In this document: in pieces, positions 1,012-35,224 of the stretch
Numbering within the stretch: the first letter of the stretch is position 1
How the letters are laid out: the number at the start of each line of letters is the position of its first letter
Assembly (NCBI GenBank): GCA_035235625.1
Contig: CP141144.1
Coordinates: 30,129,014-30,193,013 of the forward strand
Reading direction: 5' to 3'
Length of the DNA: 64,000 bases
DNA from: Saururus chinensis
Lineage: Eukaryota > Streptophyta > Magnoliopsida > Piperales > Saururaceae
Made by a program: the position numbers and the translations under genes
The notes under the pieces: model-generated
What the model was told of the DNA's origin: nothing
Databases searched by the model: none
The model's input: only the letters and a program-made list of their open reading frames with translations

Positions 1012-1073
1012 GCCTGGAACCTATGACACCCAGATTGCAGGAAGCTGGTGATGAGAGGGAGCTTCCTGACCCC

Positions 1074-3065: not shown

Positions 3066-4080
3066 CATATCCCTCCTTTTCCTACGATTCTGGATGTAAT
3101 TTTGGTGAAATTTTGGGGTATATTTAAGGTATGGGATATGAATAATTAATGATAATGAATGAGGATAAATATATTTATCACATTGGACAATAATGACCTT
3201 CATCCTCATGTTTTGGTTTCGTAGGATGGTGTTTGTAATTTGGATTTGTTTCTAGGGATACTTTTGGTATTGGCATTGCCATTGGTTGTCAATAATTAAT
3301 GTTTAGTCTTTATATGCAGTGATTTATTTGGTAGGTTTATTTAATTACCTTTATGGCATGTTATTAGATGCCGTTTTGGCTTAGGTTGGATGTTGGATTC
3401 AATATAAGAAGGGGGATGTTTTCTGCTTTTTAAGTTGGATTATATTTAATTTCCTGGCTTTTACGTTGGATTCAATTTAATAAGGAAATGTTTCATGCCC
3501 TTTTAACTTCCTTTGATTCATGTGCCAAATTGTTCCTGCCTTTTTAACTTCTTTAAATTTAATTGGTGCAAGTTGTAAACTGCCTTTTCAACTTCCTTCA
3601 ATTTAAATGGAACTTTACATTGGTTTATGTGATTTTTGGCATGGGGCATTGCTCTTTGAGTTCATTTGTCAGATTTGGAAACTTGTTTATATTGGCTCAA
3701 TATTGTGTTGGCAAAGGCAGTTTGTGATTGGCTTTAAAGGTTTGGTGTTTTATCATGGGTTTATAGATGGAATGAATTAGGCATTGTTTTTGTTTATTCT
3801 AGCCATCTAGAAGTATATTTTCATCAAGGTCAATTCATTTTTGGCTTCCCTTCTATTGCGTCATTCTTTGTAATTTTTTCATTTGCCTTCATGACAATGA
3901 ATGCAGTCTGTAGTTAGTTTTCAAATTTGAATTATGCATTTTTTGTTGTGTTATATATGTAGGCTATTGAGTTTTCAGCTTATTGGTTTAAGGTGCCTAA
4001 TATAGATTTTCTAGGTTGTTCAATCTTTGAGAAGGATTGTTTTAGTTCATATGGCCATTTGGTTTTTGGTGTTATTGTGC
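3066..4080. other. AT-rich non-coding DNA
   Basis: No supported gene. Several short blocks are loosely repeated (for example CTTTTTAACTTCCTT near 3500 and 3545, and TTTCAACTTCCTTCAATTT near 3585), suggesting old tandem decay. Confidence 0.5.
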
Positions 4081-4082
4081 AA

Positions 4083-7000
4083 CTAACAACGTTTCGTTTC
4101 GTTTTTGCTTATGGTTTGCGTCACATAAAGAGATGATGCTTGGTTCAGCAAAATTGAGGTATATTTCATCATGTTTTCCATAAATTGTTTATAATAAAAG
4201 AGAGGTACTGTTATACCTTGTTGCAATTCTTTTATATGTTTATGGTGTTTTATTTTTTGCAGTAAATAATCTTGTAGAATCATGCAATGTGGCTAATATA
4301 TAAAGATTATTATATTTTAGACTTTGTAAATGAGATGTGTGGGATAGACTGAGTATTCATAGTTACATATTGGTATTATGATTTTGTGTTTTGGTGATGC
4401 AGATTTATATTTGATATATTTTTTTATTTTTGTGTGGTATTTTTTTGTGAGCGTTATTTGTATAGGTCCTCTCCCTAAAAATTCAAGATTAATATAGCTG
4501 ATTTATCAAACATGCGTACATACGTAATTGAAACCCTAACTATTAAATGCTTGTTATGTACATGATGTATTATGATGATGGTCAGTGTCATATTGACCTA
4601 GAGCTTCGTTTAAAATTTTTCCTTGTATGTCAAACACTTATACAAACTGACATGAGTGAGGTGCATCGGTGACTAATTTGTTAAATAAATAAATATATAT
4701 CTATATAGGTGCAAATATTTTTTGTATTAATAGTTCGTTCCTTCAATTGGATAGTAGTATTAAAGTATGTTCAACAATAGTAAATTGCTCACTCACACGC
4801 ACACACACACACACACACATATATACATTCTTGTAATCGATAGTATTTTTTTCATTGGCATATTGGTATTATAGTACGCTGATCAACCATACATTGCTTG
4901 CTTATTTTGGCATTCATCTCTCAGTTTGGATGCTAAAAGATTAGGGTCAATGTGCTCATCTTCCTCATTTTTTTGGTTCGCTGGTTGTAAATCTTCCAAA
5001 CAATGCTAGACTCATTCATGATTTCTATTCAAGTCCCTTTTGTTGATGGTTTTTATGCAAATTAGATTGTAGATTGTAAAATTTATTGTTTCTATGGTGT
5101 TTATTTATAATTGGTTTTTGCTTAGTTTGTTATTGTTATGCAAAATTTAAGTTGATTTTGCGATGCATCTTTTTTCCGCTCAAAGAGATCGTACTTGGTC
5201 TAGCAGAATTGAGGTATATTTTGGCATGTCTTTTTCAAATTGTTTAATCTAAATGATGGGTCATATTATACCTTAATGTAATTGCTTTCTATGATTAGCA
5301 ATGTTTTATTTTTTGCAGCAAATAGTCTTATATAGACATGCAATGATGTTAACGTACAAGGACTATTCTACTTCGGGCTTTGCAAATGGAATGTGTGGAT
5401 GAGACTGTATAGTAATGGCCATTTGTCGTGGATGATTGATATTATGAATTTGTATTTCGATGATGTAGATTAATATTAGATATATATTTTAGTTTTTTGT
5501 GTGGCTGTTTTTATGAGTGTTGTTAAGCAGATATAGGTCATCTCCCTAAAATTCGAAATAAAAATAGTTGGTTTCTTAGGCATGGGTGCACACATGATTA
5601 AAACCCTGATGACTAGCAGATTGTTATGGCCATAACATCAGGTATCATGGTCAGTATCTTGTTGACTTGATTCATTGTTTAAAATTTTTTCATATATATC
5701 AACTAGATACAAGGACTAGCATCACAAGTTGAAATTGTGACTAATTTCATGTATGTATATATATGTGTGTATATGTTCTTGTATTAAATCATTTTTTCCC
5801 TCCTTAAGTTAGCAGTAGTATAGTATGTTCAACAATCATGTATTGCTCATTTATATAATATATATATATATGTATGCTCTTGAATTAAATCATATTTTTC
5901 TTTATTAGTGTATTGGTAATATAGTATGTTAAACAACCGTATAGTATGTTGAACAACCGTATGCTGCTTACTTATTTTGGCATTCCTTTTTCGGCTTGTC
6001 TGTTGGGAGTTTTGAGCCAATGTGCTTGTCTCCTACTTTTTTTGGTTCGCCGGTCGTAAATCTTCCAAATAATGGTGAACTCTCTTGTGACTTCCAACCG
6101 AGTCCCTTTTTTGTTAATGTTTTTTTCTTGGAAATTTAGATTGTAGATTATTAAAAATCAGAGTGTTTTTAGAAGTTATTTAATTTTTTTTAATATGTTA
6201 CTGCTATGTTAAGTTGAGATTTGAATTTGTAATCAATTTTTTTCTTGTTTAGAATGAATTGTATTAGTGTTCCCCCGATTGGTAGTTGGCATCCATAGAT
6301 TATCTTTTGTACTTACCATTTAAATTGATTTTAAATATTTTAACTTATTTGCGCTATTGCCGTTATTGATTGTTGAGTTTTGTGGACAATTTTTTTTAAC
6401 TTGTGTAAATTTGATCCCGAGAAATTTTTGCTTGCGTCGTCAAATACTTAGTGAGGCCAAACTATATTCAGCTCAAACCATTTCATAGTTATGGGAATTT
6501 ATAAGTATCAACAAAGGTTTGGGTTTTTATGTTTTATTATGGGTTTGGACATAAGTGGAATTAGGATCTGATTTTGTTAGACTTAGCTGTCCAAATAGTA
6601 TATTTTCCTCTTGGTTCATTCTTTTATAGCTTCGTTCCTATTATGCCATTCAGTATGTTTTGTTTCATTTGGGCTTTGTATCGGCAAATGCAGTTTGTAA
6701 TTTTCTTTCAAATTTGAAATTATGTGATTTTTCTTGGTGTTATACATGTATGTTATTAATATGTTGGTTAAAGCATCTAACATAGAGCGCTATCTTCAAT
6801 ATGGTGGTACATCTGGTTATTTCTTACAACGTTTTTTGTTCTGAATTACCGATTAGAGATTTAGATCCACTTGATTCATGGATACAGTTGAACTATATAT
6901 CGGAATTTAATTTAGTAGCTAATAATGATTTTCAGGCCATTTTTTTATAATGGTTACTAGAACCACCCATAGATATAGTACTTGGTGCAACAAAGTTGAG

Positions 7001-7150
7001 GTATGTTTCGTCCTATCTTACATGAATTGTTTAGATTGCTTAAGGATTTGTAAATGGGATGTGCGGGTGAGGTTGCATATTCGTGGTTATTTGCCAACAA
7101 AATTTGGAATTATAATGTTGTGTTTCGATGATGCAGACTAATATTTGTTA
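4083..7150. repeat. three diverged copies of a ~1-kb block with exon/intron-like signals
   Basis: Blocks near 4083-5040, 5150-6080 and 6800-7150 share the same order of segments: CTTGGT(N4)CA(A/G)A(A/G)TTGAGGTAT, a TTTTTTGCAG(T/C)AAATA segment, GGA(A)TGTGTGG-like text, GATG(A/T)(T/A)GCAGA, and TTTTTGGTTCGC(T/C)GGT with GTAAATCTTCCAAA. GAG|GTAT and TTTTGCAG look like donor and acceptor signals, so this may be a repeated non-coding transcript or a decayed transposon. No protein domain could be recognised in any frame. Confidence 0.6.
4793..4819. repeat. (CA)n microsatellite
   Basis: A run of about 12 CA units followed by ATATATA. Simple sequence. Confidence 0.9.
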
Positions 7151-7552
7151 GTTTTTTGGGCTTTGTATGGTAAATTATTTGTAAGTAATGATTAGTAGAT
7201 ACAAGTCTTCCACTGGCTTGGTAGATGTTTATTACCATATTCCCTTTGTTAAATTTTTTTCTTTTTTTTTGTTATGTTGTTATAATCTAATAGAAGATAT
7301 CTCCTTTTATTTTCTAACTGTCACTAATGGAACTTTTTTGGCACGCACTCATATTACCCCTATTACTTTTATTATATCCATCTTCAAGTACTGTATTACT
7401 TGCCATTTTTTACTATTTATGTGATATTGTGAAAAGTATTTGTACTTATCGTATCATTATTATGTATAGGTGTTGTTTGTTCGTGTTAGTTGTTTATTCG
7501 TATGCGTTTTTTCTCTTTCTTTTGTCTATCTGTTTAGGTTTCCAAGAGTGTC

Positions 7553-7699
7553 ATGGGCACGAAGCTTTGTATAGCATTCACACTCGTGATTGCGCGACTA
7601 CTCCTTGCAGCAAGTAGCCTATCTCATCCCTTCCCACTCATATGCACAAGGAAAAACATAAGCAAACAGCAACAACAAGACACAATTGTCCTGGTGTAA
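7553..7699 (+). CDS. 48-codon ORF with a signal-peptide-like N-terminus
   Basis: The product begins MGTKLCIAFTLVIARLLLAA, a basic n-region and a hydrophobic core (interrupted by one Arg at residue 15), then SSLSHPFPLICTRK and a QQQQ run, ending at TAA 7697. The ATG lies 17 bp after a strong acceptor-like tract (TTTTGTCTATCTGTTTAG), so it could be a last exon. After the stop, the next frame continues with RAPPKLYFGLSKYK...DPPRSI, which is open to about 7780, so a 1-nt frameshift could have split a slightly longer secreted peptide precursor. No known peptide-hormone motif was recognised. It may be chance. Confidence 0.3.
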   Translation: MGTKLCIAFTLVIARLLLAASSLSHPFPLICTRKNISKQQQQDTIVLV

Positions 7700-10600
7700 G
7701 GGCTCCACCAAAGCTATATTTTGGTCTATCGAAATACAAGGTAGGGAGAGAGGGCAAGGGTGATCCACCAAGGTCGATCTAGTTCTAATAAGCAACCAGG
7801 GTCAGCAAGCAATATGTATACCTTAATTTGAATTGTGGAAGTCTGGATTAGTTTCAATTTGAAATTATGTGTAACCTTTGTTCATTTTCGCAAATGATAT
7901 AAATAAGATAGATATTTAGAGCTTAGGCACAACAAAAGCTTTTTTTATGTAAATGGATGCATCGATTTTTGGCCACCCTATATGGAGTTGGTTATGTATC
8001 ACAATGCCCCAACTATAGTTGGTATTGTCGGAGATAAAAAATAATATGAAATGCATTAATTCAGTGTATTGCCTATGTGGTTTGACTTAATTATGAATGA
8101 GTTTTGCACCATTTGAGATTGGTTATTGTCTTTTGAATTTAAGATTGAAAATAATAATGCATAAAATAAATCCGCCGACCTTGCTAATGGAAATGTTCTT
8201 AGTATGAGCAATCAATTTAATTAATATTTGCTTGATTAGTATTTATGGGTTAATTATGACATTGCTAATGGAAATGTTCTTAGTATGAGCAATCAATTTA
8301 ATTAATATTTGCTTGCTTAGTATTTATGGGTTAATTATAGTATGTTTCGATTCATTTCCATGGTTTGAATGACATGTTGATGTTCGATATAGAGAAGCTA
8401 ATTATTATATTATCTTTGATGTTAACATGAAAAGTTTAATATTTATATTTTGAACCCATACAATTATGGCATAGGTTAAATATCATCATATTATATGAAA
8501 TCATGAATTATAATAGGTAGGTGTTCACGTTTATAATATTATAAACAACTTAAAAAAAACAGCAGAAGTTATGTGATATGATAAACCTAGATGTAATTTT
8601 GATTAGTTATACAAAGTTTACTATTTTAATATGCATAATTATGGGGATGTGTTTATGTTTGTTGTTCCATATTTCCATATATTCAAATTGGATTTAATTT
8701 CCATAATTTAGTGTGTGACATAATTTTGAGTGTGTTTATATTAGGTATCCTTGATTCATATCTTATCAAAATCTTTTTAATTTCCATGATTTTGGGACGT
8801 AATATATGGGGAAATATGCATGTTAAGGAAAAACTATATATACCATCGTATGTTGCTTATTTAAGTATAACTACATGACTTAATATGGGAATTTGTATGA
8901 TTTGCTGTGTAACGTAATGGATAGAATATTTTTTTTGATTATTCTATATATAAACATTCCAAGTTCGGTACTAAGGGTATGTGTATAAAAGTGTATTAGT
9001 ATTACATAACCTGATAAAAAAACACTTCTTTGAATATGCCCCAGACATATAGCTCACTATTTTTGATCAAGTCTATGTTTCTGTTAATTGGTATGTATAT
9101 TAGTGTTTCCATTGTTGTTATATATTGTTAGTTTGTGCTATATAAATCTTTGATTTGTATTTGTTGATTGTATGCTTCTGCTCTTGGTTTTTTCCTTTTA
9201 TATGTTAAAAGTAGTTTGTCTATTTTATATACAGTTTGTTGATAACTGAAACAAGTTAATTACGCGTACAAATAAAAAAATGGATTTTCTTGTGTTAATT
9301 CGCTATGAAAGAGATAAATGCAATAAGTTTTTTATTCCAAAACATGAGTTAGTAACCTTTTGAGTTGTGTAGTTTCCACTTATTGATCTCAATTTAAGTG
9401 TAAAGATCATAAGTAGTGGCTTCTTGTAAATTTTCAGCAACTACTGGAAGAGGGTGAAAATGACCTTTCCTACTACTCTAAAGGAAACATGGGACTAGAG
9501 AAAGAGGTGCCTGTGGAGCTGTACTTAAGATGTAGATATATGTTTTGTGTCTGTGTGTGTGGTACCTGTTTTAAATGCCTCTGTTTTTCATGGTGGTATT
9601 CTTCTATGTGTGACACAATAGGATTCCTCTTGGTTGGCCTGTCCTAAACTAGAAAATCTCACCCTGTCGTAGTGGTCAGTTAGCTCAAACATTTTAGAAT
9701 GAGCGTTGCAATATAATTGAATGTACAAATACATTTGAGAACAGTAAATGTGTTTTTTTACAATTTTACCTTGAAAGTACTCCCTCCGTATTAATGTCAG
9801 TCGTAGGAAGTATGAATTTGTTGCTTCCATGTCCTACAGTATTGTGTTTTTTTTCTTTCTTTTGCAATTATCTTTGTAGATGAGCTATTTCATTGATATA
9901 TTTTCTACAAAAGGATTTCAACTGGCAATATTTATTTCTGCATATATATAACAAATAATTTTATTTTATTAACTGTATTAAGTTAATTGGTTTATGTTTA
10001 GATAAAAAGTTGTCCCTTACGATTTGTGTGTGGGGTGTGGGACTGACAAGGAAGTAGCAATTGATTGGGTAAGCACAACCAGTGAGATAACCATGATAAT
10101 CAAAGTTTGAGTTGGCTTGTGAGGTTAGTATTTTCTACTGTTTAATCTTTGAACTTCTTATGAGTATTAACTTTTTCAGAGTTTTGGAATAAATAAGTGC
10201 ATCAGATTGGAATATCAATATATGTTGATTAACTAATGTTGAAAATTATTTTACTAACTCATGTACTTATGAATTTAAAAATGAACCATAACATTACACA
10301 AAAAACCTAAGGTTTTTAAATGAAAGCCTTATCTAAAAAAACACTACTCCAGTTAGAGTTAAGGCGGCCTTTATTCAATTGGGGGTCTAAGGTGAATATA
10401 AAATATTTTATATTACATTTTTCTCTATTAATGACTCCATTAAGAAGAATAAAAAAATTTCTTTGATGATACCCACACATAAGAAAATAAAAAATGAGCT
10501 TATAAAAGGCTATTAATATAGGGCAATCTATTTTTGAAATTTAACTACAATATTATATAGTAATTTTTGAACAAAATGATCATTGAAATTTTCAATTTCC

Positions 10601-16389: not shown

Positions 16390-18031
16390 TCGTTGATACA
16401 CCCTCTTCTCCATCTACAACCCACACACCAATGCCACCTCCTATTGCAACCACCCAAACCCACCCAAAATCCTAAACACGACTATTTCCAACACCCTCTC
16501 CTACACCCCTACTTGTTACACTCAAGCATCGAAACACGCTGAATGGCACAAAGCCATGTTGGAGGAATTCACAGCTCTATAGCAAAATCAGACTTGGACC
16601 CTTGTTCCACGACTGCAAGGATGCCACATCATTGGCAACAAGTTTTTTCGCATTAAAACAAAACCCAATGGTGACGTTGATTGCTACCAATCTCGTCTGG
16701 TCGCCAAAGGATTTCATCAAACCTATGGATATGAGTACGATGAAAACTATAGCCCAGTCATCAAGCCGCCCACCATACATCTTGTTCTTTCCATGGCAGT
16801 GGCCAACTCATGGCCCCTTCTCCAACTAGATGTTCAAAATGCTTTTTTACATGGAGAGCTTGATGCAGACATCTTCATGCACCAACGAGCAGGCTTCCAT
16901 GATCCTATGTACCCCCATCATGTCTACAAGCTCCGCAAGGCATTGAACAGACTCAAACAGGCTCCACACTCATGGTTTCAAAAGTTCAGCTACTTCCTTC
17001 TCCAAGAGGGTTTCGGCCAAAGCCGAGCAGACACTTCCATGTTCATCCACAAGTCCCCATTAGGTATACTAATACTTTTGTTGTATGTTGATGATATACT
17101 ATTGACTGGTGACAACACCTGCCTTCTACCTTCTTTACTTGCCAAGATGAACAGTGCAATTGCTTTGTGCAACCTTGGAGAACCAAGCTTCTTCCTTGGC
17201 ATTGAGCTTCATCGCACACCAACCGGCCTTCATCTCCACCAAGCCAAATATGCTGGTCACCTTCTTCAGCAATACAATCTATCGGATTGCAAGCCTTGTG
17301 CCACGCCAAGCTCCCTCAAGCCGCCCAAAATGACAATCCAGCCACTCTCCAATCCAACAGAATTCTGGCAACTTGTTGGCAGTTTACAGTACCTAACATT
17401 CACAAGACCAAACATTGCTTTCAGCATCAACAAGATATGTCAAGCCATGCACAGCCCAACTACTGCTGACTTTATAGCAACCAAAAGAAGGTATGTTAAA
17501 GCCTCACCAACAAAGGGACTTCTACTTGCAGCCATTCCATCCACCACACTACAGGTCTATTCAGATTCTGATTGGGGAGGTGACTCCGCTGATTGACACT
17601 CAGCAACAGGCTATTGCATCTTCTTCGCCCCAAACCTAATCTCCTAGCAAGCCAAGAAACAGCCAACCATCTCTCGTTCTAGTACAGAAGCATAGTATAG
17701 AGCACCAGCAACAGCTGCCGCTGAATTGCTTTAGATTAAATATTTGCTGCGTGGCATTGGGTACAAGCCGCATCATGCACCAATTCTTCACTGTGACAGC
17801 AAAGTGCAGCTGCTCTTGCCTGGAATCCAGTTTTTCATTCACGCTCCAAACACATTGAGTTGGATCACCATTTTATTTGCAAAAGAATGGATAGCAAGCT
17901 CCTGCACTTGCAATACATCCCAACTGAGTTTCAAGTTGCTGATCTTTTCAACAAAAGCTTATCAAGTGCCCGCCATAACTATCTCGCCTCCAAGCTTTAG
18001 ATGCATGTACGCTCTTCAGCTTGCAGGGGAG
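16390..18031 (+). pseudogene. Ty1/copia polyprotein fragment: reverse transcriptase and RNase H
   Basis: The 3' part of a copia pol gene. Around 16540-16800 fragments read HAEWHKAMLEEFTAL (then a TAG), QTWTLVPR and RLVAKGFHQTYGYEY. The open frame 16793-17596 has LDVQNAFLHGELDADIFM, the RT active-site motif YVDDILLTG, FFLGIEL, and YSDSDWGGD of RNase H. After 17596 the RNase H reading is broken by several stops and frame changes down to about 17990. The gag, protease and integrase parts are missing on the 5' side. It ends in a purine-rich CAGGGGAG tract followed by an LTR. The element is inactive, being truncated and carrying stops. Confidence 0.93.
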
Positions 18032-18211
18032 TGTAAAAAGACTCAATCTTCTCCACTACTTGCAGTTCCAAACTCAGTTTTCTCCACTACTTGCAGTTCC
18101 ACTTTCTTCTCATTTCAGTTTCCACCATGTGCCCTTCTATTATTACTACTATAACTGGTCAGTCTATCCTATAAGAGGTTTTTCTATATTAACTGGCCAA
18201 AGAATGAAATA
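18032..18211 (+). repeat. copia 3' LTR, left part (split by the MULE)
   Basis: The LTR starts TGTAAA directly after the polypurine tract at the end of the copia fragment. It is cut at about 18211 by the MULE terminus and resumes after 29068. Confidence 0.7.
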
Positions 18212-18254
18212 TTCCATATTCCCTGGATTTGAAACGGAAATGCCATATCACCTG
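18212..18254 (+). repeat. left terminal inverted repeat of the MULE
   Basis: Starts TTCCATATTCCCTGG and ends GCCATATCACCTG. It pairs with 29026-29068 with one difference (C versus T near the inner end). Confidence 0.93.
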
Positions 18255-18338
18255 GAATAACATGATATAAGCTAAAATGTGGACTAAAATGCCCCTGACC
18301 AGAGGTAGGGTTTTATATCGTGTTAAATCCTCACAAAG

Positions 18339-18358
18339 TCGCATTCAATGTCATACGA
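18339..18358. repeat. dyad motif near the left MULE end
   Basis: TCGCAT-N8-ATACGA, a degenerate form of the TCGTGT-N8-ACACGA dyad with the same 8-bp spacer. A single half site TCGTGT lies at 18318. Confidence 0.5.
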
Positions 18359-18748
18359 CTTCTGACGCCGGTGATTCCTCCGAGTGAAAATTCTGTTCTG
18401 ATTGAAAACTCACTTCTGATTGGAAAGTCCCCTTTTTGAGCACCGCGTAAGAGTTGTGTGAGAAGATTTTGTGACCTATCCGACCAAAACATCGAAGATT
18501 AGGGATTTTCAGTTCTGGAATGAGTTTGAGTTTGCGAAGAACAAGTTTTTGAACAAGGGTTTCTTGTAAGCCCAGTTTTGAAATTGTACACCGCAAAACT
18601 AGTTCTTCTTTGTAGCGTAGATCGGGTTTGAGGCGATTCTGGAAAAGCAGTGGCCGAATGAGTGTTCAATCCAGCTCAGAGAACAAAAGCGGAGGTTTCG
18701 TGGTAAGGTACGGCATTTTGGATATTTATATGCATGATTTTTTATTTA

Positions 18749-18852
18749 GCGTGTACTCAAACACACGACATAGGCCGTCAAATCAAACTATCATTGTGTC
18801 AGAAAGACGATATGTCATATATCGTGTGCTCAATAAGTTGGTGGAAACACGA
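18749..18852. repeat. dyad array in intron 1 of the accessory gene
   Basis: Dyads GCGTGT-N8-ACACGA (18749) and TCATTG-N8-AGACGA (18791), a half site TCGTGT (18822) 31 bp further on, and an ACACGA half site at 18847. Confidence 0.65.
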
Positions 18853-18999
18853 TGTATAACCATAAAGATGCCGTGTATGCACGGGCTGCTTAGCGTATGT
18901 TCAATTACATGATACATATACTTATCATCTTTATAGAAGTTAGTTAGAAAAAGTGTGAACAGACGCGTTTATTGATTATGGTCACAACCTATTGTTGAT

Positions 19000-19000
<1 letters not shown>

Positions 19001-19033
<33 letters not shown>
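19001..19033. repeat. (TA)n microsatellite
   Basis: About 16 TA units in intron 1 of the accessory gene, 8 bp before the CCAATTTTTCAG acceptor. Confidence 0.9.
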
Positions 19034-19035
<2 letters not shown>

Positions 19036-19875
19036 AATTTTTCAGACATAAATTTTGAGTATTACATCAAATGGCGGAGTCTGTGAAGGTTGCAAAAGAG
19101 AAGAAGAAGAGAATCTACGGGAGAAAACCGGGTCTGGGCACAAATGGTTTCCCCGCTGGACTGTGTCTATCAAAAGACCTTCTAGATTCATGTCCGGGAT
19201 GCAAGGCGATTTTAGTAGTGTCTGGGTTCTACCCAATATATGATTGCGAGCCCATCATCATCTCCAGGCCGCTGTTGGATGTACTCATTGGTGATTGTTG
19301 GGACGACTCACTGGAAGTCTTCAACATAAGGGGCAAAAGACTACCCTTTACAGTGGATGAAATGGCTATGATCATGGGGTTGAGTGGAAAAGGGAACCCA
19401 TGTAAATTAGAAAGCAGCGACGGGAAGGCTGCCCAAGGCAAGGGGGCATTCTAGAAGACGTTCTTCCAAGGGAAGCGACTAGAGAAGACAGGACTGGAAG
19501 AATTGTTCAAAGAAGTGGCTGCAGAAACAAGGAATGTTTCAGATGTGGACTTAGCATGGTTGGCTATTATGCACATGGGTGTCCTCGTGTTATTCACGCA
19601 GAACAATAGAGCCATATCCCCAGCTTTGTGTGATTACTTAGATGACATATCCGTCGTGGGGAGCTACAATTGGGCAAGGGCCGTACATGATTTACTGATG
19701 AGAGGCATATCGGCAGCCCACCGGAACATCATGAGCAGACAGGACGAGCATTCCGCCACAGCCAAAATTTTCGTAGGGGCTTCATTAGTACTCCAGGTAA
19801 CTCTCGTATGTTTTATAATATGTTAATTCTAATACCATATTAATAATGAAATGATATGTTTCACAAAGATGAATA

Positions 19876-19991
19876 TCGCCTCATCGGTCACATGATACCA
19901 CTCTCAAGTGTGTTATCAAACATACGACATTTAAACATATCGTGTTCTCGACAACACGACTATGGATTCGAGCGTGTTATCCGTAACATGA
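19876..19991. repeat. four dyads at exact 32-bp spacing, intron 2 of the accessory gene
   Basis: Starts 19876, 19908, 19940 and 19972. Half sites are TCGCCT/ACATGA, GTGTGT/ATACGA, TCGTGT/ACACGA and GCGTGT/ACATGA, each with an 8-bp spacer. The 12 bp between dyads are not conserved. Confidence 0.85.
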
Positions 19992-20849
19992 CAAATTTGT
20001 TATAGTGAAGTTACTGAACATTTTAGCCTAATGTTTATATTCTTTTGTATTGTCCGCCGCTAGGTATGGTTTTATAAGCATATGTCCATATGGCCTCCCA
20101 GTGGTCCGGTTTGCAACCTGAGGTGCAAGAGGTGGCCCGGATTTACCCAACTATTATGCAACGTGGAGAAGGCCGATAAACATAACCCAGTCGACAAAAG
20201 GGGAGGAAGATGATTCTAGCTCATCACCGGATGAGGAAGTGGTACAAGGATTTTTTCATGAGGTTGAAGCCAAACTCGCAAATTGTTTTGTGCATCACAC
20301 CAATTGTCGAAGAGGTGCACTTGATGAATGTCCAAAGGGCGACCCCGAAAGCTAAGAAGGCGGTTATGCATCCTTTTCTGAACAATGAGACCCAACCATG
20401 CTCCCCACGGCGAGACGTTGGCACATGTACATTCCGGCCATGTTGTCATTAAATCATTTGTCATGCCAGTTGATGTCATGACGGGAATATGTGAAGTTGT
20501 TTTGGAGAAGGCTGTTCTATACAGTGATCGGGGATGGAACACCGATCGAGTTGCATCTGCACTCCAGCGTGTTAAGGACAATCTAGAGGTGGCAAATAGC
20601 CTCATAGAACATATGCAACCTCCCAAGGCCGTTGATACTTACAGCCGCCTGAACCCATTCATCCGGTGGTCGAGCAAGCATCAACCCCCCCTCCGAGAAC
20701 CGAAAGATCACCATCGGTTTGTTCAAAGGCAAGAGCTTCAAAATCAAGAGAAGCGCGTCAACCATCTGCCCCTGAAGATCAACCAGTACAAGTCCCTCAG
20801 CCAGTGGAAGAGGGATTCATTTTAAGTAAGTACCAGACAATAGATCATA

Positions 20850-21052
20850 TCGTTGAGTAAGAAAGACGACGGTTGGATTGTCGCATCATCGGTCACATGA
20901 TCATTCACGTAGTAGTTGTGAGAAGCATCTCTACGTGGTCGTGTGATCGTGAGCATGATTTGGCTATTGGTAATGTTTGTACGAATACGATAAGATCTTT
21001 ATCGTGTTTGTAAATGACGACTTGCATGGATATCGTGTAGTTACTAACACGA
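20850..21052. repeat. dyad array in intron 3 of the accessory gene
   Basis: Dyads at 20850 (TCGTTG/AGACGA), 20881 (TCGCAT/ACATGA), 20939 (TCGTGT/GCATGA), 20971 (TAATGT/ATACGA) and 21033 (TCGTGT/ACACGA), with a half site at 21002. The steps 20850-20881, 20971-21002 and 21002-21033 are 31 bp and 20939-20971 is 32 bp. Confidence 0.8.
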
Positions 21053-22174
21053 TTACTTACTTCTTAAATACAGAGAAAAGGCAACCGCAAGCTACCACCA
21101 AACAAAAGAAGAAGATTGATCCGAAGTTACAAAGGACTGTAATAACTAGATTTTTGTCGAAGATAAATGCAGAATCCCTGGAACAACCCCGGGATGTCAA
21201 AGAACCACCATGGGAGTTAGAGGAACTGGCCCTTCCCTGGGATGTCGATGAACAACCCCAGGAGGTAGTTGAACTAGACCGTCCCCTAGATGTCGACGAA
21301 CAACCCCGGATGGTAGAGGAACAAGACCTTCCACTTGAGGTTGTGGCTCAAGTCTGCGATGTGCCAAAACAACCCCATGAGGGACCCGTAGACCAACTGG
21401 AGATTCTAGAACAACCCTTAAAGGTGCCGGAAGCACCCAAGCAAGCGAATAAAGGAGTAGCACACAAACGAGTAAAAATCAGAATGCAGAAAGCTTCTCC
21501 TGGCCCTCCCATTGTACCTCATGCACAACGAAAGTCAAGGTCCAATGCAGTTGACCCATCTGCTCAAGGTCAGGAGCCAGTGATGAAAGTTACAGCTTAG
21601 GTAGCGAAGAAGCCAAAGCATTTCAACAGCTATGTTGATGAGAAGCTAGCAAAGTATGGATACAGTCACCAGCCTTGAAAGCCTGGGGACGAACTACCTC
21701 TAGCTTCGGTCCCTGGCCCAAGCTTTATCCGTCAAGCACATCCAAAGTCTCCCACCCCGGACCCAGTAGCCCCAATCGCAGTTTCCAGTGAAGGCACTAT
21801 CTCAGATACTCCTCCAGTAGATGCGGATGTAATGGTGAGTTTCCGCACTATTGAAGATGTCCAAGAAGATACTGCGACTAAGACGAACAAGGAGGAGACA
21901 AGTTTGCGGCTGAAGGACAATCTTGACATAGTGTTGGTGTTCCACCTAGAGGTTTTGGAAACGACAGTTAAAGAAATTATCACGGAATTTCTGTCGAACC
22001 CATACCAGTCGTGGCCCATAGAGACACTCCTATACACAGACTACCTATCTCTATTAAAGCAGGAGTGCATAACGAATGAGGTAATATGTATTCATTACTC
22101 ATACTCATACATTTTAAGCTCTATAGTGTTATCAATCAAACGATTGAATATCTTACACATATTACAATAAATTA

Positions 22175-22344
22175 TCATTTTATCGATTACACGATGCATA
22201 ATCATATCGTTGGTTTTCATATACGCTAACGATCAACTTGTAATTGCTGAAGTAAAAATAGTGTGTTAATTAATACACGACTTGTGAACTAGTCATGTGA
22301 TCATAAACACGGTATAGGCACTTATTGTGTCATTGCTAACACAT
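22175..22344. repeat. dyad array in intron 4 of the accessory gene
   Basis: Dyads at 22175 (TCATTT/ACACGA), 22207 (TCGTTG/ATACGC), 22261 (GTGTGT/ACACGA), 22293 (TCATGT/ACACGG) and 22325 (TTGTGT/ACACAT). Two 32-bp-register groups fill most of the 278-bp intron. Confidence 0.8.
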
Positions 22345-23108
22345 ATGGTATTGTGTAGGTCATCAATGTCTTCTTCTAACTACTAGATGAACGCAATATG
22401 AGAAATCTAGGCAGTATCCCAACTATGTTTTCGGCAAGTTTGCTATTCAGCACTACTTCAACGTCGGCACTAGGGAAGAGCCCCCGGAGAAGGAAGGCAA
22501 ACTCTTGACCATATTGTTGAGAGGCCTGAATGTTAACATGGAAAGCGTTTTTATTCCTATTTACATCAAGGGCCAATTTCTATTGCTTATTATCTGCTGT
22601 AGGGAGAAGCGATTTAGGTGGTACAATCCTCTAAAGGGTGATCACAGTCACCACTTTGCCAAGGTGGACAGTGTCAGGAAACATGTTGCCAATGGAATGG
22701 AGAAGGCACTTAAGATAAAGGGGGCTCAGACGTGGCCACTGACTAATATCAACAAATGCCCGTACCAAGAAACAAATGAAGATTGTGGTTTGTTCGTCAT
22801 ATACTATGTAGCGAATTGGCAAGGGCATCATTCAGCCAAATTTTAGACAGCTCAAGATAGCAGGCTTGGTCAGGCCAATGATATGCGCTGCTATACTTCA
22901 TGCCCGAATCGAAAAGGAATTTGATCTGGATACAGATGAGTTGTAAAAAAGCCACTTGTTTTTTGCAATTAATTACTTTGACCAATTATTTTGTGATTAA
23001 TGACTATGACCAATTCTTTTCTAATTAATTATTGTATCAATTATTTTGCACTAATTTTTTGTACGAATCTCAGTTGCCGTATAATTGATTAAATGATTTG
23101 TATCAATA

Positions 23109-23237
23109 TCGTATATTCAATATCGCTATACAATAGTGCACACATATCCGATCATATTATAGTTCTTACGATCGCCTACTAGGTCGTGTTATCGAATACA
23201 CGCCTACTCGTATTACGTCGTGTTATCGTTTACTTCA
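23109..23237. repeat. dyad array after the accessory gene
   Basis: Dyads at 23152 (TCATAT/TTACGA) and 23184 (TCGTGT/ACACGC), 32 bp apart, with half sites at 23109 and 23218. Confidence 0.7.
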
Positions 23238-23666
23238 CCTCTCGTATAAAGACGTCTGTGGCTAGCATTGATAGGCTGTTTGTATGCAAAATCACGTGCG
23301 ACCTCATGGGATGGATCATTCGAGACATTGTTATAGCGCCTGGTCACGTACTCCCCCAACCAGATGAAGGTGAGCCCCTTATCTCATAGAGGGGAAGATA
23401 CACCATCAGGCACGAAAGCAATCTTCAGAATTATCCGCCTAAAATTGAGTTTCCATGCGATCTCCTTGCAAATCACCAGCTGCCACTACAGCAGTCTCCC
23501 GAAGAGAGCATGAGTGAGCATTCTGTAAACCCCAACCTCGTGAAATATATATATATATATATAGGCAGGGTGATACAATGCATCGGGAATAGGGTCAATA
23601 GCATCCTATCATTGTCGTGGGTTCGGCCACACGTTATCACCAATCTTCCATGTATAATAGTGTATG

Positions 23667-23786
23667 TCGTGTTATTGCATAATTGATCAACATATTTATG
23701 TATCGTGTTTTTGTTTTCATGAATATGTGCTCCATCGTGTGCTTGATTGTATGACCAATATTGAGATCGTGTTATACAAGAAGACA
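23667..23786. repeat. half-site array, 32-bp register
   Basis: TCGTGT begins at 23667, 23703, 23735 and 23767; the last three are exactly 32 bp apart. The matching right half sites are eroded (TCATGA, GTATGA). Confidence 0.7.
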
Positions 23787-24330
23787 TCTTTCAACGGGAA
23801 AACCAGATGTAACTAATATTAATATTTTCCTATAACTTGAAATGCCTTTCATTACATTCAACAAACTGAAATTTACAATATTTTATAAATATGAATAAAA
23901 TAGTGTTCTGCCTCGTGGCCTGTGAATATCAGTATGTGTGCACTCTCCATGCAGATTCACGAACCCATCACTTCAATTGTGATGAAACCTTCACGACATT
24001 GAAATAATGCCTGGTTATTAATTGCCCACCTTCAGAGGCTGGTTAGGCCCGATCCACTGAAGGGGACGAATAACCATCAGACACCATTTCACTGTCCCAA
24101 AGGCTCTATCTCATGCTCTTCGCGAATTGGGTAAGCGGCTTCTGTCACTTCCATATATATAGGCAAGTTGCAAGGGATACGAATCATTAAATCTTCCATA
24201 TATAGTGGGGACTCCTCACGAATTGGTCATAATAATTTAATTGAAAGCTTGGAAATTGTGGGGACTCTTCGGGAATTGGGTGGTAACATTAATGCAATTG
24301 TCATGTGCTCGATCCATGCAGTGTTTCGTA

Positions 24331-24493
24331 TCGTGTAATGGGTTACACGATTTGAAACAATAATCACTAACGTAGTCGTCAACTCATAATTGGGTTATGG
24401 TACCTCATCGTGTGAATGTTAACACGATATTTACAAAAGTCATTTGAAAAGTAAATACAAATTTCATCAAATGTCGTGTGGTCGGCAACACGA
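24331..24493. repeat. three perfect dyads in the MULE spacer
   Basis: TCGTGT-N8-ACACGA starts at 24331, 24408 and 24474. The three 8-bp spacers are unrelated (AATGGGTT, GAATGTTA, GGTCGGCA). A weaker unit sits at 24440 (TCATTT/AATACA). Confidence 0.9.
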
Positions 24494-25145
24494 TTTACAA
24501 ACATAATGTATCAAGGCATAAATGCTTGCTCGAACAATTATCATCGAAAATGCCAATCTTTACAAAGGAGTGGAAAAAATACACAGATAATAACAAGCCA
24601 TCTCGGCGAGAGCAATCAGCTGGCATGCGATCTCCTTACAGACTCTCAAACCGATGAGACAGATCATTAGGGACATTGATATATCGCCATCTAGCAAACC
24701 AAGCCCACCATCGGATATGGGTGAGTACCAGAATTGACGGCGGGCTGATTCACCAGCCGACGCTAAAGCAATCTCCCGAATGACCCGTCTCTACAAAGAA
24801 CCAGTGAGTGAGCATTCTGCAAAACCTAAATTGTCGTCTATCGAATAGGGCACAAATGTGATAGATCATTAGAGAAATTGATATATCACCGTCAAGTGAA
24901 TTATGCCCACAATCAGATATAAGTAGTGACCGTATCCGATCGTGGGCCAATTCACCAACTGCCGCTACGACAATATCCTAAACGATACAACTCTGCAGAG
25001 AACAAATTCACTAACCGCTGCAAGCACAATCTCTACGAAGAACCAGCGAGTAAGCATTCTGCCAACCCTAACCCTAAGATAATTGAAGGTATTGATTCCT
25101 CGGGAATAATGCCTCCGCAATTTGAACATTTCAATCATAGAATTG

Positions 25146-25278
25146 TCGTGTGTTCGAACACACGATATGCCTCATTTCGTGTAAGTGAATGACACTTTGA
25201 CATCGTGCAAGCAAAGGAAACTTTGACATCATATACAATATCCACTATGTACAACATGTCTTGTTCTTATGAACACGT
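25146..25278. repeat. fully palindromic dyad and a weaker partner
   Basis: At 25146-25165 the dyad is TCGTGT-GTTCGAAC-ACACGA, palindromic through its spacer. A weaker unit TCTTGT-N8-ACACGT sits at 25259-25278. Confidence 0.8.
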
Positions 25279-25827
25279 TACTTACATATTTTGTGTTGAT
25301 TATAAGACGATGTATATACAAAAAATTTCATCTGAAGAACAGAGGTGGAAAAGGTAAGCCTAATTAATGCTCTCCCTCCTTACGCCATTTGCGTGCGCTA
25401 TTATTCGGCCGCCTTCAGCTTTTCTATGGGACATCTGCCACATTGGAGGGCCCTCCTTGTGCACTGGTACATTGTTTGCGGTTGTGGCCCAACTAACTAC
25501 ATGTTCCACATTTTCGTTGGGCTTTGAGAGACGGTTGTGACTCTATCCGATAGGTGGGTTGAATGTAGGCATAACACCTACCGGTGCCCATTGGTGCCGA
25601 TCTTTGGTTGGGTGTAAGTGCTCATGATAGGTCAATTTATACATTTCAGTAGAGTGCCATCTTTTGCAGTACTCAGCCACATATAAGTGTCTATTATCAA
25701 TTGATGTGATTGCATGCTTACATGGTAGACCCAGATGTTGAAACATTCCACATGTGCAGGTATGATCAACCAGGTTTACCACATCTTGTGAAGAAAAGAT
25801 CGTAAGAGAGCACGATAAATGAATTTA

Positions 25828-25921
25828 TCATGTTCTCTAGTACAGGACGTATCTTACAATCGTTACGTAAAACCCATCGACTTACACATTGAAGGACAAT
25901 AACGTGCATAAACTAACATGT
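25828..25921. repeat. weak dyads in the transposase intron
   Basis: TCATGT-N8-ACAGGA at 25828 and ACGTGC-N8-ACATGT at 25902, within the intron between transposase exons 3 and 4. Confidence 0.45.
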
Positions 25922-26991
25922 TATGTATCCCTAACGCATAAATGAGCACATGCTATGTACATTGCCATATGAATGCAATGTACTTAGTGATGTAGCGAAT
26001 TAACCTGAAATTCATATAGTGACACAGGCAATACAATCACATTCCTTGCTTCTTCTCGCCTATTTTCGATGTGTTTTCGGGCAAATGGGGTTAACTCTTG
26101 CATCATATTCTAACCATCCATTTGACATTTTTCAAATAAAGTTGTTGTGTGCTCCCTCGTGTGCTCAATTAAACACGTTATAGGCATCGATCTGGCTTTT
26201 TTGAACATTGCATTTGCGCTTTCAGACCTATTGGAATTGAGTGTCCCATATCTTTTACCGGGAAATGATGCATTGGCCCAGTGATCCGAACCTATCTTAT
26301 TTAGCCAATCATATGCTTCCGGATTATGTTTGTTAATGTTGTTCATTATTTCATCATACACATTATGTCTGAACGTTTCGGCTCCAACATGTAGATGATT
26401 CTTTAGGTAATTGTCCTTGAATCTGTCTAGCATATTTGCTGTCATGTGACAGATGCAATACCCATGGTGTATATATGGGAAAAACTTCTTCACAGCATTT
26501 GTCAATCCCTTCTGTCTATCTAAAACGATTACATCCAACTCGGCTGGAGGATCAGAGAATAGATGATTTCTAAGCAACTCAAGAAACCAACACCAAGTTT
26601 TCTCGCACTCCTTCTCAACCACTGCAAATCCAACACACAACATATTATTGTTCCCATCCAATGCAGTTGCTATCAATAGCTGTCTAGGATACTTTCCTTT
26701 CAAGAAAGTTGCATCAACCGTTAGCAATGACCTCAAGGTTGTTCTGAGAGCTCTTGTAACGGGGCCAAACATCCAGAATACTTTTTTAAAATCGTACCCA
26801 CCCATAGGGCCGGGTATGTCACATGATCTCACTGGCACAACTACACTTCCCGGATTTATCTATTCTATCTGCCACCCATCAGAAGGAAGTACGCGGTAGG
26901 ATTCGTTTGGGTCACCATCTATTAAATCACTCAGAGCTTTGCCTGCACGACCATATACAATTTAGTAAATGTAATACAACACCGATTGACA

Positions 26992-27172
26992 TCGTGTTCC
27001 CGATCGCACGACAGTTTATGTTTTCGTGTGATCAGAATCCATACATGGTGCCTAATCATGTTTATGGTAACACAATATGGACGTATGTCATGTGATTAAT
27101 AACACGATATGGATAACACGATATGGATAACACGATATCGACTATAGTTTAAGCGTGTAAACAATAACACGC
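26992..27172. repeat. dyad array in transposase intron 2, 32-bp register
   Basis: Starts 26992 (TCGTGT/GCACGA), 27024 (half site TCGTGT), 27056 (TCATGT/ACACAA) and 27088 (TCATGT/ACACGA) are exactly 32 bp apart. The right half of the last is part of a run of three ACACGATAT copies 14 bp apart (27102-27138). A final dyad GCGTGT/ACACGC is at 27153. Confidence 0.85.
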
Positions 27173-28016
27173 TAAACTAACGCATCATGACACTAATACA
27201 ACACTTCGTTTCTTCCCATGCATTACCTGTGCGCCAGCATTTCTTGTAGTTCACAGTATGCCCCAGTGCTTCGAAATATAACTTGATATGCTCTTAGGTG
27301 TAATGTCCATAGAGTCTTTAAAGAGGTCATAATATTTTCTCTCTATACAAAGGTGCGATGCTAGGGGATGGTCAGCTCACTTCCTTTGAGTTCCAAATAA
27401 ATGAGTCGGCACTAACCTCGTGACAGCCACACGATCTCCTATATTTGAAGCACTTTGTGGCATACGTATTCCGGTTTTCATCCACAACATAATATGAAAA
27501 ATTCGCCTTTATTGCTAAGTCGATCAAGACCCTCTTGAAATGCAACAGACTTAGAAAATATGCACCCAATTCGAGAAGCTTCTAGTAATCCTTAGCTTGC
27601 AAGCTACCCGTCATTAGCTGGCTGTCATCAATATTCGGTTCCAACATGTTTAAATCATCAACAGTATCCTAATCTACCTCCGCCTCAATGTCAATGTTAC
27701 TGGGAACCTCGTTGTTTCTAAATTCTTCATGGTCAGACATACTTTCCATGTCAACTATATCATTATTGTACCACAGATCATCATCCCACATATTTTTATC
27801 TTCTTCACCTTGTCCACCGTCGTAATTACAAGGGTTGTATGGAGGTTCTAGTTATCAAATGAAGTCCTTGTCCTATCCATCATTGGCAACAATTCCTCTG
27901 ATCTATTCTGATTAACTTCTATTTCAGGTTCTGCACTTGCAGGATCGTTGAAAGATGATTGACATGGATTTGTTGAGGGCAAGTTTCCCGGTTCTCGCAA
28001 TCTGCATTGCACATTA

Positions 28017-28270
28017 TCGTGTTAAAATAATGCAAAATTAATCGACATCATGTATTCTGTTAACACGCAAACATTTAAAGATGCGTTATCAAAACCACGA
28101 CATGGATGCATGTCTTGATATTATAGCCATGATGCAACATATAATTGCTCTATCGCATGTGTCTATTGTGTAATTACTAATACAATATATTACAGGTTGT
28201 GTTTATAACTTCGCACAATATGATTTACCCTTAACATGATAAGTTCAATATCGTGGTCTCGAGTACACGA
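28017..28270. repeat. dyad array in transposase intron 1
   Basis: Dyads at 28166 (TTGTGT/ATACAA) and 28251 (TCGTGG/ACACGA), with weaker units at 28017, 28048 (9-bp spacer), 28081 and 28113 spaced 31-33 bp apart. Confidence 0.65.
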
Positions 28271-29025
28271 AATATACCAATTGTGTACAATCTAAAGATT
28301 CAATATTGTTACCTGACAGTTTCAAAGGTGAACAGAGTTTCATTGAATATGGTATGAAATCCGACATTATTGCTGGGATGAGCCATTACGACGGGTGATT
28401 CATCTCTATTGACTGTTTGGTTCCCTTCAACAAAGGGTGATGGTGATCTATCACCATTGTTAGGTTGTTTCATCTCGGCATACAATAATAACACCTCCTT
28501 ATTCACCTTCTTATGAATGGACAACACTGATTGAAGGTCCTCATCGTCTTGTAATTCATATATCATGGATGATTGGGAAGATAAAATTAAATACTTCAAA
28601 CTTACATTACCATTGGCGGAAAGTCGTGCTTTGACTTGCCCCACTAGCTCGCCAAAGCTCACCGACGGATGAATGTTCATCAACCGTGTCATTCCTCCTA
28701 TATACATGTCGTCATTGCCTAACTCTTTGTTATAATGGATGCAAATACTGAACCTATCCATGTTCGGTGTGAAAGAATGATTCCTTTCTACGAAATGCAG
28801 CTTTTGGAGCATTCACACAGCGTCAGCGCTCTCAAAAAATATTTTTTTCTTGTTCATCAACTCTCGCCAGTGAGTCACTGCTAGTCAGCTCCCAACAGAG
28901 AGTTCCGTTCACTGCCGATGACTCCCAGCCCACAGGAACGGCACTTCACTGTTCCTTTGCAAATTTATTACTCTCTACATTAAAACCTACTACAGTGGAA
29001 ACCTAAGGGCATTTTGGTCCACAAA

Positions 29026-29068
29026 CAGGTAATATGGCATTTCCGTTTCAAATCCAGGGAATATGGAA
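29026..29068 (-). repeat. right terminal inverted repeat of the MULE
   Basis: The reverse complement of the left repeat. The bases outside differ (AAAACTCATC on this side), marking the end of the element. Confidence 0.93.
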
Positions 29069-29147
29069 AAAACTCATCTATAAATATAGGATTGAGCCAT
29101 CTCCTGTAATTTATGTTGAATCAAATACTTCAATAGATTTCTTTACA
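29069..29147 (+). repeat. copia 3' LTR, right part
   Basis: Contains TATAAATATAGG and a tail ending TTTACA at 29147, the inverted match of the TGTAAA at 18032. This shows that the MULE landed in the LTR. Confidence 0.65.
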
Positions 29148-33689: not shown

Positions 33690-34160
33690 TAAAAGATAGA
33701 AGAGAGTGAAGAGAGATAAAAGAGAGTGCATGGAGAGAGAGTGAGAGTGAGGAGAGAGAGAATGAAGAGAGAGAGGGATCGAAAAGAGAGAGAAGACAGA
33801 GAGAGTAGAGGGGGAGAAGAGAGAGTGTTAAAGGGAAGAGAGAGTGGGTAGAGAGAGAGAGTGAGGAGAGAGGAGGTAGAGAGAGGGTGAGGAGAGAGAA
33901 AGTGAGGAGAGAGGGAGAGTGAGGAGAGAGAGAAGAAGAGAGAGAAGAAAGGGAGGGAGGGAGAGGGAGAGGAGATCAGAGAGAGTGAGTGAGGGTGGAG
34001 AGAGAGAGGAGAGAGAGGGGGTTAGGAGAGAGAGAGTAGAGAGGGAGAGAGAGAGGGTGGAGCGAGGGAGGAGAGATAGAGATGGAGGGAGAGAGAGGAG
34101 AGAGATGGAAGAGAGAGAGAGAGGGAGAGGAGAGAGAGAGGGAGGAGATAGAGGGAAAAT
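33690..34160. repeat. purine (GA) tract 1 in the CACTA element
   Basis: Almost uninterrupted G and A on this strand. Arg/Glu-rich open frames across it are products of base composition. Confidence 0.95.
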
Positions 34161-34289
34161 TTTAATTTTATTTGTTTTATATTTTTTATTAAAAAAATTA
34201 ATTAATTAATTAATAAATAAAAATGTATTAGCGACGCAAATATACTTGTGTCACTAATACGCTTATTATTAGCGACTCATATTGCACTA

Positions 34290-34622
34290 TTAGCAAGAGA
34301 GAGAGGAAGGATGAGAGAGGGGAGAGAGAGAGGGGAGGACAGAGAGGAGGGGAGAGAGAAGAGAGAGAGGAGGGGGGAGACAAAGAGAAGGGGGAGAGAG
34401 AGCAAGGGAGAGAGAGAGAGAGGAAGGGAGAGAGAGAGAGAGGAAGGGAGAGGGAGGGAGAGAGAGAGAGGAAGGGAGAGGGAGGGAGAGAGAGAGAGGA
34501 AGGGAGAGGGAGGGAGGAAGGGAGAGAGAGGAGAGGGAGAGGGAGGAGAGAGAGAGGAGAGGAGGGGAGAGAGAGGAGAGGGAGAGGAGAGAGAGAGGAG
34601 AGAGAGAGAGGAGAGAGGGGAG
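34290..34622. repeat. purine (GA) tract 2 in the CACTA element
   Basis: Same composition, with an internal AGAGAGAGAGAGGAAGGGAG repeat of about 30-35 bp near 34420-34520. Confidence 0.95.
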
Positions 34623-34844
34623 ATTATGTTTAACAATTTTTTAATAAAAAGCATATTAGCGACGCATATACTTATGTATCACTACTAACTCTGCATATTA
34701 GCGATGGATACGTATATGCGTCGCTAATATCACAGTGTATTATCGACATATAGATTTATACGTCTCTAATACTCTATGTTAATAGTGACATATATGGTAT
34801 ATGTCACTAATAGAATTTTTTTATATTAAAAAAATAAAATTAAA

Positions 34845-35075
34845 AGAGATAGAGAGAGAGTGAGGAGAGGGGAGAAAGAGAGGAAGAGAGAGAGGAGAGA
34901 GAGAGGGAAGAGAAAGAGGAGGGGAGAGAGAGAGGAGAGAGAGGTAAGAAGAGAAAGAAGAGAGACAGAGAGGAGGGGAGAGAGAGAGGAGAGAGAGAGG
35001 GTGAGTAGTGAGAGAGAAGAGAGAGAAAGTGAGTAAGAGAGAAAGAAGAGAGGAGAAAGAGTAAGGAGAGAGACC
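34845..35075. repeat. purine (GA) tract 3, followed by a CT tract
   Basis: A GA-rich run to about 35075 is followed at 35079-35140 by a CT-rich run, so the two can pair as a large foldback. Confidence 0.9.
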
Positions 35076-35224
35076 GGATCTCCTCCCTCTCTTTTTCTCT
35101 CTCTTCCCTTTTCTCTCTCCTCCCTCCCTCTCTCTTTCCCTGTCTCACTTTCCCCTTTTTTGTGATGCTTCTAGTACCCTTTTTTGCGATGCTTTGAGTG
35201 GAAGCATTGCAAAAACCTTCGCGC

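Follow-up and report, generated by a model that had tools for sequence, protein, structure and literature searches.

What reads a short palindrome that recurs many times inside a single transposon? The window analysed here is a stretch of 64,000 nucleotides from Saururus chinensis (assembly GCA_035235625.1, contig CP141144.1, positions 30,129,014 to 30,193,013). It contains a Mutator-like element (MULE) with one gene for a MURA-type transposase and another for a protein with DUF1985 and Ulp1 domains, and the noncoding DNA of this element carries arrays of the dyad TCGTGT-N8-ACACGA. The sites follow the turn of the DNA helix and avoid exons, and the sampled places that carry them were confined to one MULE family, lying in it or matching it. 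We consider it likely, by analogy with the VANC proteins of Arabidopsis, that an anti-silencing system with sequence specificity uses the dyads as its private recognition sites, which are read by a dimer of the DUF1985 and Ulp1 protein.

A palindromic dyad with a fixed spacer

The initial annotation had listed 29 starts of the dyad, and at each of them the half sites were indeed 8 bp apart. Their agreement with TCGTGT-N8-ACACGA varied, with at most 2 mismatches at 18 starts, 3 at another 8 and 4 at the remaining 3. A mechanical scan of the MULE found 24 sites with ≤2 mismatches and 11 with ≤1; six of the ≤2-mismatch sites (22124, 23615, 23703, 25259, 25291, and 25828) were new. When spacers of k = 0–40 were scanned across positions 18140–29110, k = 8 formed a clear peak with 11 / 24 sites (≤1 / ≤2 mismatches), while other spacers gave 0–2 / 0–4 sites. 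The exception was k = 40 (5 / 9 sites), because 40 is the sum of 8 and the 32-bp step between adjacent dyads. In 300 dinucleotide shuffles the mean at k = 8 was 0.01 / 0.38 and the maximum 1 / 3. The remainder of the window held 0 / 1 sites, in line with the earlier impression that no comparable density occurs elsewhere in it. With ≤3 mismatches the contrast was weaker (40 sites at k = 8, 23 at k = 10, and 21 at k = 0; shuffle mean about 4).

The dyads had been assigned to one MULE, and this was confirmed; the extent of the element was amended to 18212–29068, as set by terminal inverted repeats of 43 bp. In the left repeat the best spacer-8 match to the dyad had 6 mismatches. From the left end, about 540 bp of the element precede the first site with ≤2 mismatches.

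The spacer, described earlier as freely varying, does vary, but its centre is not free. In the 24 window sites, selected on their arms alone, the symmetrised central position was C in 28/48 and T in 15/48 cases and its neighbour was T in 31/48, and the same preference for TC·GA (the dot marks the centre) was present in 188 non-redundant sites from 12 elements. The site is a palindrome of about 24 bp with an extended consensus of about (A/G)TCGTGT(T)ATC·GAT(A)ACACGA(T/C). As it is symmetric, we infer a dimeric binder. The 40 window sites with ≤3 mismatches deviated 79 times from the half-site sequence, and 28 of these changes were C>T or G>A at CpG; such transitions would be expected if some sites had decayed while methylated, and methyl-CpG decay seems to account for part of the degeneracy of the half sites.

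Sites follow the DNA helix

Nearest-neighbour intervals of 20–150 bp were collected for sites with ≤2 mismatches, giving 161 intervals, or 124 after removal of look-alikes. They clustered at 31–32, 51–54, 61–66, and 82–86 bp. Over the 124 non-redundant intervals, phasing reached R = 0.66 at 10.5 bp with a best-fit period of 10.52, and 85% of the intervals deviated by no more than 2 bp from a multiple of 10.5 bp (about 43% expected). Phasing persisted in the 88 intervals of ≥40 bp (R = 0.55) and in the 13 intervals of the window MULE alone (R = 0.53). Genome-wide, outward-facing half-site pairs (ACACGA-N5..23-TCGTGT) numbered 1941, compared with 1155 for the pattern read backwards; 36 among the first 50 pairs listed had linkers of 11–12 bp.

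Sites avoid exons and their arms are conserved

In 12 elements, only 3 of 252 sites fell in coding sequence as defined by tblastn, where 78 were expected. None of the 24 sites of the window was coding, although the gene model assigns 5758 of 10857 bp to coding sequence, and each intron of that model contains at least one dyad. A recurrent noncoding motif that avoids exons is a feature of VANC systems.

Divergence was measured between aligned copies (pieces 65–95% identical, each pair counted both ways). It was 0.162 for the arms, 0.208 for spacers, 0.217 for linkers, and 0.198 for other noncoding DNA; spacer and linker diverge alike. The ratio of arms to linkers was 0.75 with a bootstrap 95% interval of 0.70–0.80 (237 sites), which is approximate since the copies compared are related. 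Spacers of neighbouring sites 31 or 32 bp apart had a likeness of 0.41 (54 pairs), compared with 0.42 for random pairs, and 12-bp linkers within one element shared 0.35 (38 non-adjacent pairs). Because neighbour spacers are no more alike than random ones, the arrays do not resemble recent tandem copies. The initial annotation had read the dyads as a dimeric protein-binding site that was selected for or amplified, and not as the product of simple copying. Judged from sequence, arm conservation, phasing, unlike neighbour spacers, and exon avoidance all argue for this proposal.

Sampled dyads lie in or match one MULE family

The host genome (516 Mb in 11 contigs) was searched for exact copies, with counts given per strand. 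It contained 2061 copies of TCGTGT-N8-ACACGA compared with 43 of the pattern read backwards. Spacers of k = 0–7 together gave 88 copies (11 per spacer; 304 backwards) and those of k = 9–24 gave 605 (38 per spacer; 539 backwards).

From the first 50 exact places listed, all on one contig, 11 clusters were sampled. All 11 encoded DUF1985/Ulp1 and/or MURA pieces of the window family according to tblastn, with MURA pieces only in L017-L018 and in L019, while five neighbouring stretches without such gene pieces held 0, 0, 0, 2, and 0 sites. One further exact place, L004, had 5 sites and a DUF1985 match. Among the remaining 14 single places, 8 were sampled as 3-kb stretches; DNA similarity to the family was found in 8/8, spanning 455–2975 of 3000 bp, and protein similarity within 3 kb in 6/8. 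Related MULEs of this genome carry the same dyads, with 11–29 in each of 12 tabled stretches of the family (family A). L036 (3000 bp) carried 14 dyads in 3 kb without a coding match; it may represent a derivative that is non-autonomous, or else an extensive array of intergenic DNA.

MULEs with diverged DUF1985 proteins carry other motifs

Of 957 candidate DUF1985 matches in the genome, 150 were scored, and five further loci (L025–L029) were examined. These loci with diverged DUF1985 had 0–1 dyads each. MULEs with diverged DUF1985 proteins carry different motifs, as was found for 4/5 of the loci; a motif private to one family, with other motifs in related families, is again a feature of VANC systems. 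L027 and L028 (stretches of positions 1–10000 each) contained 14 and 7 matches to TAACTGATA-N5-TAACTGTTGAC at ≤5 mismatches, some of them weak or overlapping, and L025 and L026 contained 11 and 8 matches to AAACTGGAAAACTATA at ≤2 mismatches. Each of these two motifs occurred 0–1 times in all other stretches tabled.

L025 and L026 also contained 8/16-bp periodic AAACTGGA/AAACTATA arrays and long GA-rich repeats with a 3-bp period. The fifth locus, L029, encodes a DUF1985 and Ulp1 relative (26% and 29–34% identical); its family score was shared by at least four places in the genome with an open frame of 242–282 amino acids without stops.

Genes of the window element

Gene models of the window MULE were drawn by eye (Table 1). 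The element combines a MURA transposase with a second gene encoding DUF1985, both of which characterize VANC systems. In the window copy the DUF1985 gene is disrupted by in-frame stops and frame changes, and the MURA gene is broken by stops or frame changes. With open frames joined and X at stops, the DUF1985 domain scored 37.8 bits (cut-off 35.1); the same place scored 39.6 bits in the genome search. Peptidase_C48 (Ulp1) scored 34.3 bits (cut-off 20.7). In the transposase, MULE, Transposase_mut, and SWIM were above and DBD_Tnp_Mut was below the cut-off. A protein search with the transposase returned 5 matches, the best of which, from Aristolochia californica, reached 34% across 56% of the query. 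Two PDB searches gave no clear relative (no match in one, best E 0.29 in the other).

The ratio of nonsynonymous to synonymous divergence (dN/dS) was scored against the window copy on pieces of ≥60 codons and ≥55% identity, and was below 1 in 34/34 comparisons scored. Medians were 0.45 for DUF1985 (n = 5), 0.27 for Ulp1 (n = 6), and 0.30 for the MURA core (n = 6). The coding regions of DUF1985 and Ulp1 are under constraint. The highest median, 0.60 (n = 3), belonged to exon 3 of the DUF1985 gene, a variable protein region with tandem peptide repeats like that of VANC proteins. Within Ulp1 (window 22391–22846), the window copy has Gln where 8/8 aligned relatives have His, at a position which we take to be catalytic. 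At another position, for which we also assume a catalytic role, the window copy and 7 family relatives have Asn, compared with Asp in the diverged L029.

Table 1. Positions of the dyads, genes, and terminal repeats of the MULE within the window.
Feature	Position	Strand	Remarks
Dyad upstream of DUF1985 gene	18749..18768		1 mismatch; probably in 5' leader intron; weaker sites 18791, 18822, 18893
Dyad array, intron 1 of DUF1985 gene	19876..19991		Starts 19876, 19908, 19940, 19972; exact 32-bp steps; 19876 and 19908 with 3 mismatches
Dyad array, intron 2 of DUF1985 gene	20850..21052		Starts 20850, 20881, 20939, 20971, 21033; 20939 and 21033 with ≤2 mismatches
Dyad array, intron 3 of DUF1985 gene	22124..22344		Starts 22124, 22175, 22207, 22261, 22293, 22325
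Dyads between convergent genes	23152..25310		Starts 23152, 23184, 23615, 23703, 23735, 24331, 24408, 24474, 25146, 25259, 25291
Dyad in transposase intron	25828..25847		
Dyad array, transposase intron	26992..27172		Starts 26992, 27056, 27088, 27153
Dyads, transposase intron	28166..28270		Starts 28166 (3 mismatches), 28251 (1 mismatch)
DUF1985 and Ulp1 (Peptidase_C48) gene, VANC-like	19072..22949	+	Four exons by eye
Exons of DUF1985 and Ulp1 gene	19072-19796, 20064-20826, 21073-22080, 22357-22949	+	By eye
48-bp coding tandem repeat, variable exon 3 of DUF1985 gene	21241..21332	+	
MURA-type transposase gene (PB1, DBD_Tnp_Mut, MULE, SWIM)	25342..28812	-	Exons by eye
MURA exons	28316-28812, 27228-28001, 26002-26945, 25342-25795	-	By eye
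Left terminal inverted repeat of MULE	18212..18254	+	42/43 identical to right repeat; without dyad
Right terminal inverted repeat of MULE	29026..29068	-	Without dyad

Setting of the element

The flanks of the MULE were inspected for a target-site duplication; several 8/9 matches were seen, none of them convincing. Copia reverse transcriptase and RNase H frames (window 16583–18000) stop just left of the element, and sequence resembling a long terminal repeat (LTR) seems, by eye, to restart on its right (window 29069–29146). These frames and the flank sequence, judged by eye, suggest that the MULE may be located within a Copia LTR; no second copy of the flanks was found when the window was searched. 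Further to the right, GA-rich simple repeats extend over about 1.4 kb (window 33700–35160), and repeats of the TAGCGACGC type occur near them. A Gypsy-type frame matched proteins of many plants in a protein search.

A proposed anti-silencing system and its alternatives

In the proposed system, the dimer of the DUF1985 and Ulp1 protein would recognise the palindrome (A/G)TCGTGT-TATCGATA-ACACGA(T/C), one subunit per half site, with a distance of 14 bp between half sites. Where sites are separated by whole helical turns, mostly in steps of 31–32 bp (three turns) but also of about 53, 63, and 84 bp, the dimers would bind cooperatively along a single face of the DNA, in introns, the intergenic region, and the gene flanks. 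The bound protein would then remove or exclude DNA methylation, and the genes of the element would be transcribed in members of the family only. What we infer here is dimer binding, the DUF1985 protein as the binder, and the anti-silencing outcome.

The dyads could instead be sites of the MURA transposase, for assembling or regulating transposition or for demethylating the element, which we regard as unlikely. The same elements encode MURA, which varies together with the motif: the MURA cores of L026 and L028, which lack dyad arrays, are only 24–38% identical to that of the window. One study cites hypomethylation of terminal repeats by MURA (PMC10398659). However, the dyad is missing from both inverted repeats, its first site with ≤2 mismatches is well inside the left end, every intron of the gene model contains it, and the precedent for private noncoding arrays, in the portion available of PMC5735166, is a DUF1985 protein. 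Because of this VANC precedent we prefer the DUF1985 protein over MURA; both proteins change together between families. That the arrays are sites of a host transcription factor, insulator, or chromatin protein amplified by chance in the family appears improbable. Helical phasing could be selected by any oligomeric factor, and the CGTG/CACG core of the half sites resembles common plant regulatory cores. Yet all sampled places are in or match one MULE family, and where DUF1985 has diverged, MULEs of this genome have other motifs; a shared host factor is disfavoured because it does not predict motifs that differ by family.

We give very little credence to remnants of an old tandem repeat or satellite that never had a binding function, past or present, even though 31–32-bp steps recur, many changes in the arms are of the CpG type, and only 18 among 150 MURA exon matches listed are stop-free. 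Neutral tandem copying is disfavoured by the dissimilar neighbour spacers, by phasing that extends to about 53, 63, and 84 bp, and by arms that change more slowly than spacer and linker, and the exons are avoided. It is hardly conceivable that the palindrome acts in RNA, as hairpins or as splicing signals in introns. Many dyads are intronic, and complementarity was kept in 8/9 arm pairs in which both partners deviated (188 sites). But these 9 double changes compare with about 17 expected for independent arms (a count lowered by the ≤2-mismatch cut), so that compensation is not in excess, and complementary double changes fit a symmetric dimer site as well. Dyads are also dense between the convergent genes, and the phasing is that of the DNA helix; RNA hairpins are therefore disfavoured.

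Several points weigh against an anti-silencing system built on the DUF1985 protein. MURA could be the binder, as the motif co-varies with the whole element, and a search for proteins similar to the joined DUF1985 query (residues 1–430) gave no homologue at E ≤ 0.001. The genomic clusters were picked for holding several exact sites. Controls of phasing with wrong spacers are thin: spacers 0, 10, and 17 gave 4, 11, and 6 intervals with R of 0.16, 0.18, and 0.66, the 6 intervals of spacer 17 being too few to judge, and spacers 5, 19, and 21, with ≤3 intervals each, were left unscored. The p-values for phasing and exon avoidance are nominal, as they treat elements as independent that are in fact related, and so overstate independence. 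L029 had neither a dyad array (0–1 sites) nor a clear motif of another kind. Both other motifs were defined on the loci in which they were then counted, so their counts there are descriptive and the weight lies in their near absence elsewhere. The MULE keeps inverted repeats of 43 bp, 42 of them identical, while VANDALs are noted for degenerate or absent ones. Moreover, VANDAL motifs, as given in the available texts, are 8–9 bp long (YAGTATTAY; AGTTGTCC/AGTTGTAC), have one orientation and often lie in tandem repeats, in contrast to the palindrome of about 24 bp with a fixed 8-bp spacer and up to three CpGs found here.

An extension of the proposal is possible but doubtful. At least three mutually exclusive anti-silencing codes might coexist in one genome, each MULE family having a DUF1985 protein and a matching operator to itself. 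As the palindrome bears CpGs and is helix-phased, CG methylation could switch binding off, which might make the element a bistable, self-protecting transposon.

Comparison with known systems

A helical periodicity of VANC motifs is said to have been described by Sasaki et al. in 2022. In our literature search, none of the entries listed was recognised as describing a MULE or DUF1985 element whose motif is a long palindrome or is phased on the helix. Hosaka et al. (2017; PMC5735166) showed that the motif bound by VANC21, YAGTATTAY, is dense in noncoding parts of VANDAL21 (introns, intergenic DNA, and terminal DNA), that the targets of VANC6 carry a different motif, that motif density matters, and that VANCs have DUF1985 and variable repeat regions. 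Host RNA-directed methylation targets the same regions, as stated in the accessible part of Sasaki et al. (2023; PMC10398659). Other partial sources state that some members of the VANDAL clade have terminal inverted repeats (PMC6446971), and meeting reports refer to a crystal structure of VANC21, as yet unpublished, and to coevolution of protein and target (PMC8756742, PMC12859917). Passages of PMC10706983 contributed nothing about motifs.

The window family resembles the VANC systems of VANDAL21 and VANDAL6, as far as these are covered in the excerpts (PMC5735166, PMC10398659), in being a MULE with MURA and a DUF1985 protein, in a motif that is dense in the element's own introns and intergenic DNA, private to the family and different between families, and in a variable protein region with coding tandem repeats. 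It differs in showing little sign of tandem copying and clear helical phasing; the motif, being a palindrome, has no orientation, and neighbouring spacers are unrelated, in place of one-orientation motifs within tandem repeats. Ulp1-bearing VANC genes occur in VANDALs, with similar Ulp1 in MULEs of grapevine, melon, and rice, and the Ulp1-type C48 domain on the extra DUF1985 gene of the window MULE is shared with Kaonashi/KIU MULEs (PMC13317346, available in part). The Ulp1 of the window copy has Gln for the His of its 8 aligned relatives and, together with its 7 family relatives, Asn for the Asp of L029.

Sites of TnpA have a subterminal position and those of MURA are within terminal repeats, whereas the dyads of the window are internal and missing from the terminal repeats. 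As with Spm TnpA and MuDR MURA (PMC10398659), a protein encoded by the element would act on that element's DNA and relieve methylation.

Taken from sequence, the candidate operator is long, spaced, palindromic, and helix-phased and so differs from the published 8–9-bp VANC motifs, within an overall layout like that of known VANDALs. The literature, as far as the available texts go, leaves open how VANC-type proteins select their targets and how the two change in concert. In the genome of S. chinensis, one large family has a clear palindromic operator and phasing, and its sister families have other candidate operators; the protein-DNA code should therefore be open to testing through comparison and straightforward binding assays. 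The finding suggests that arrays for self-recognition also occur in MULEs whose kind of operator is unlike those of Arabidopsis.

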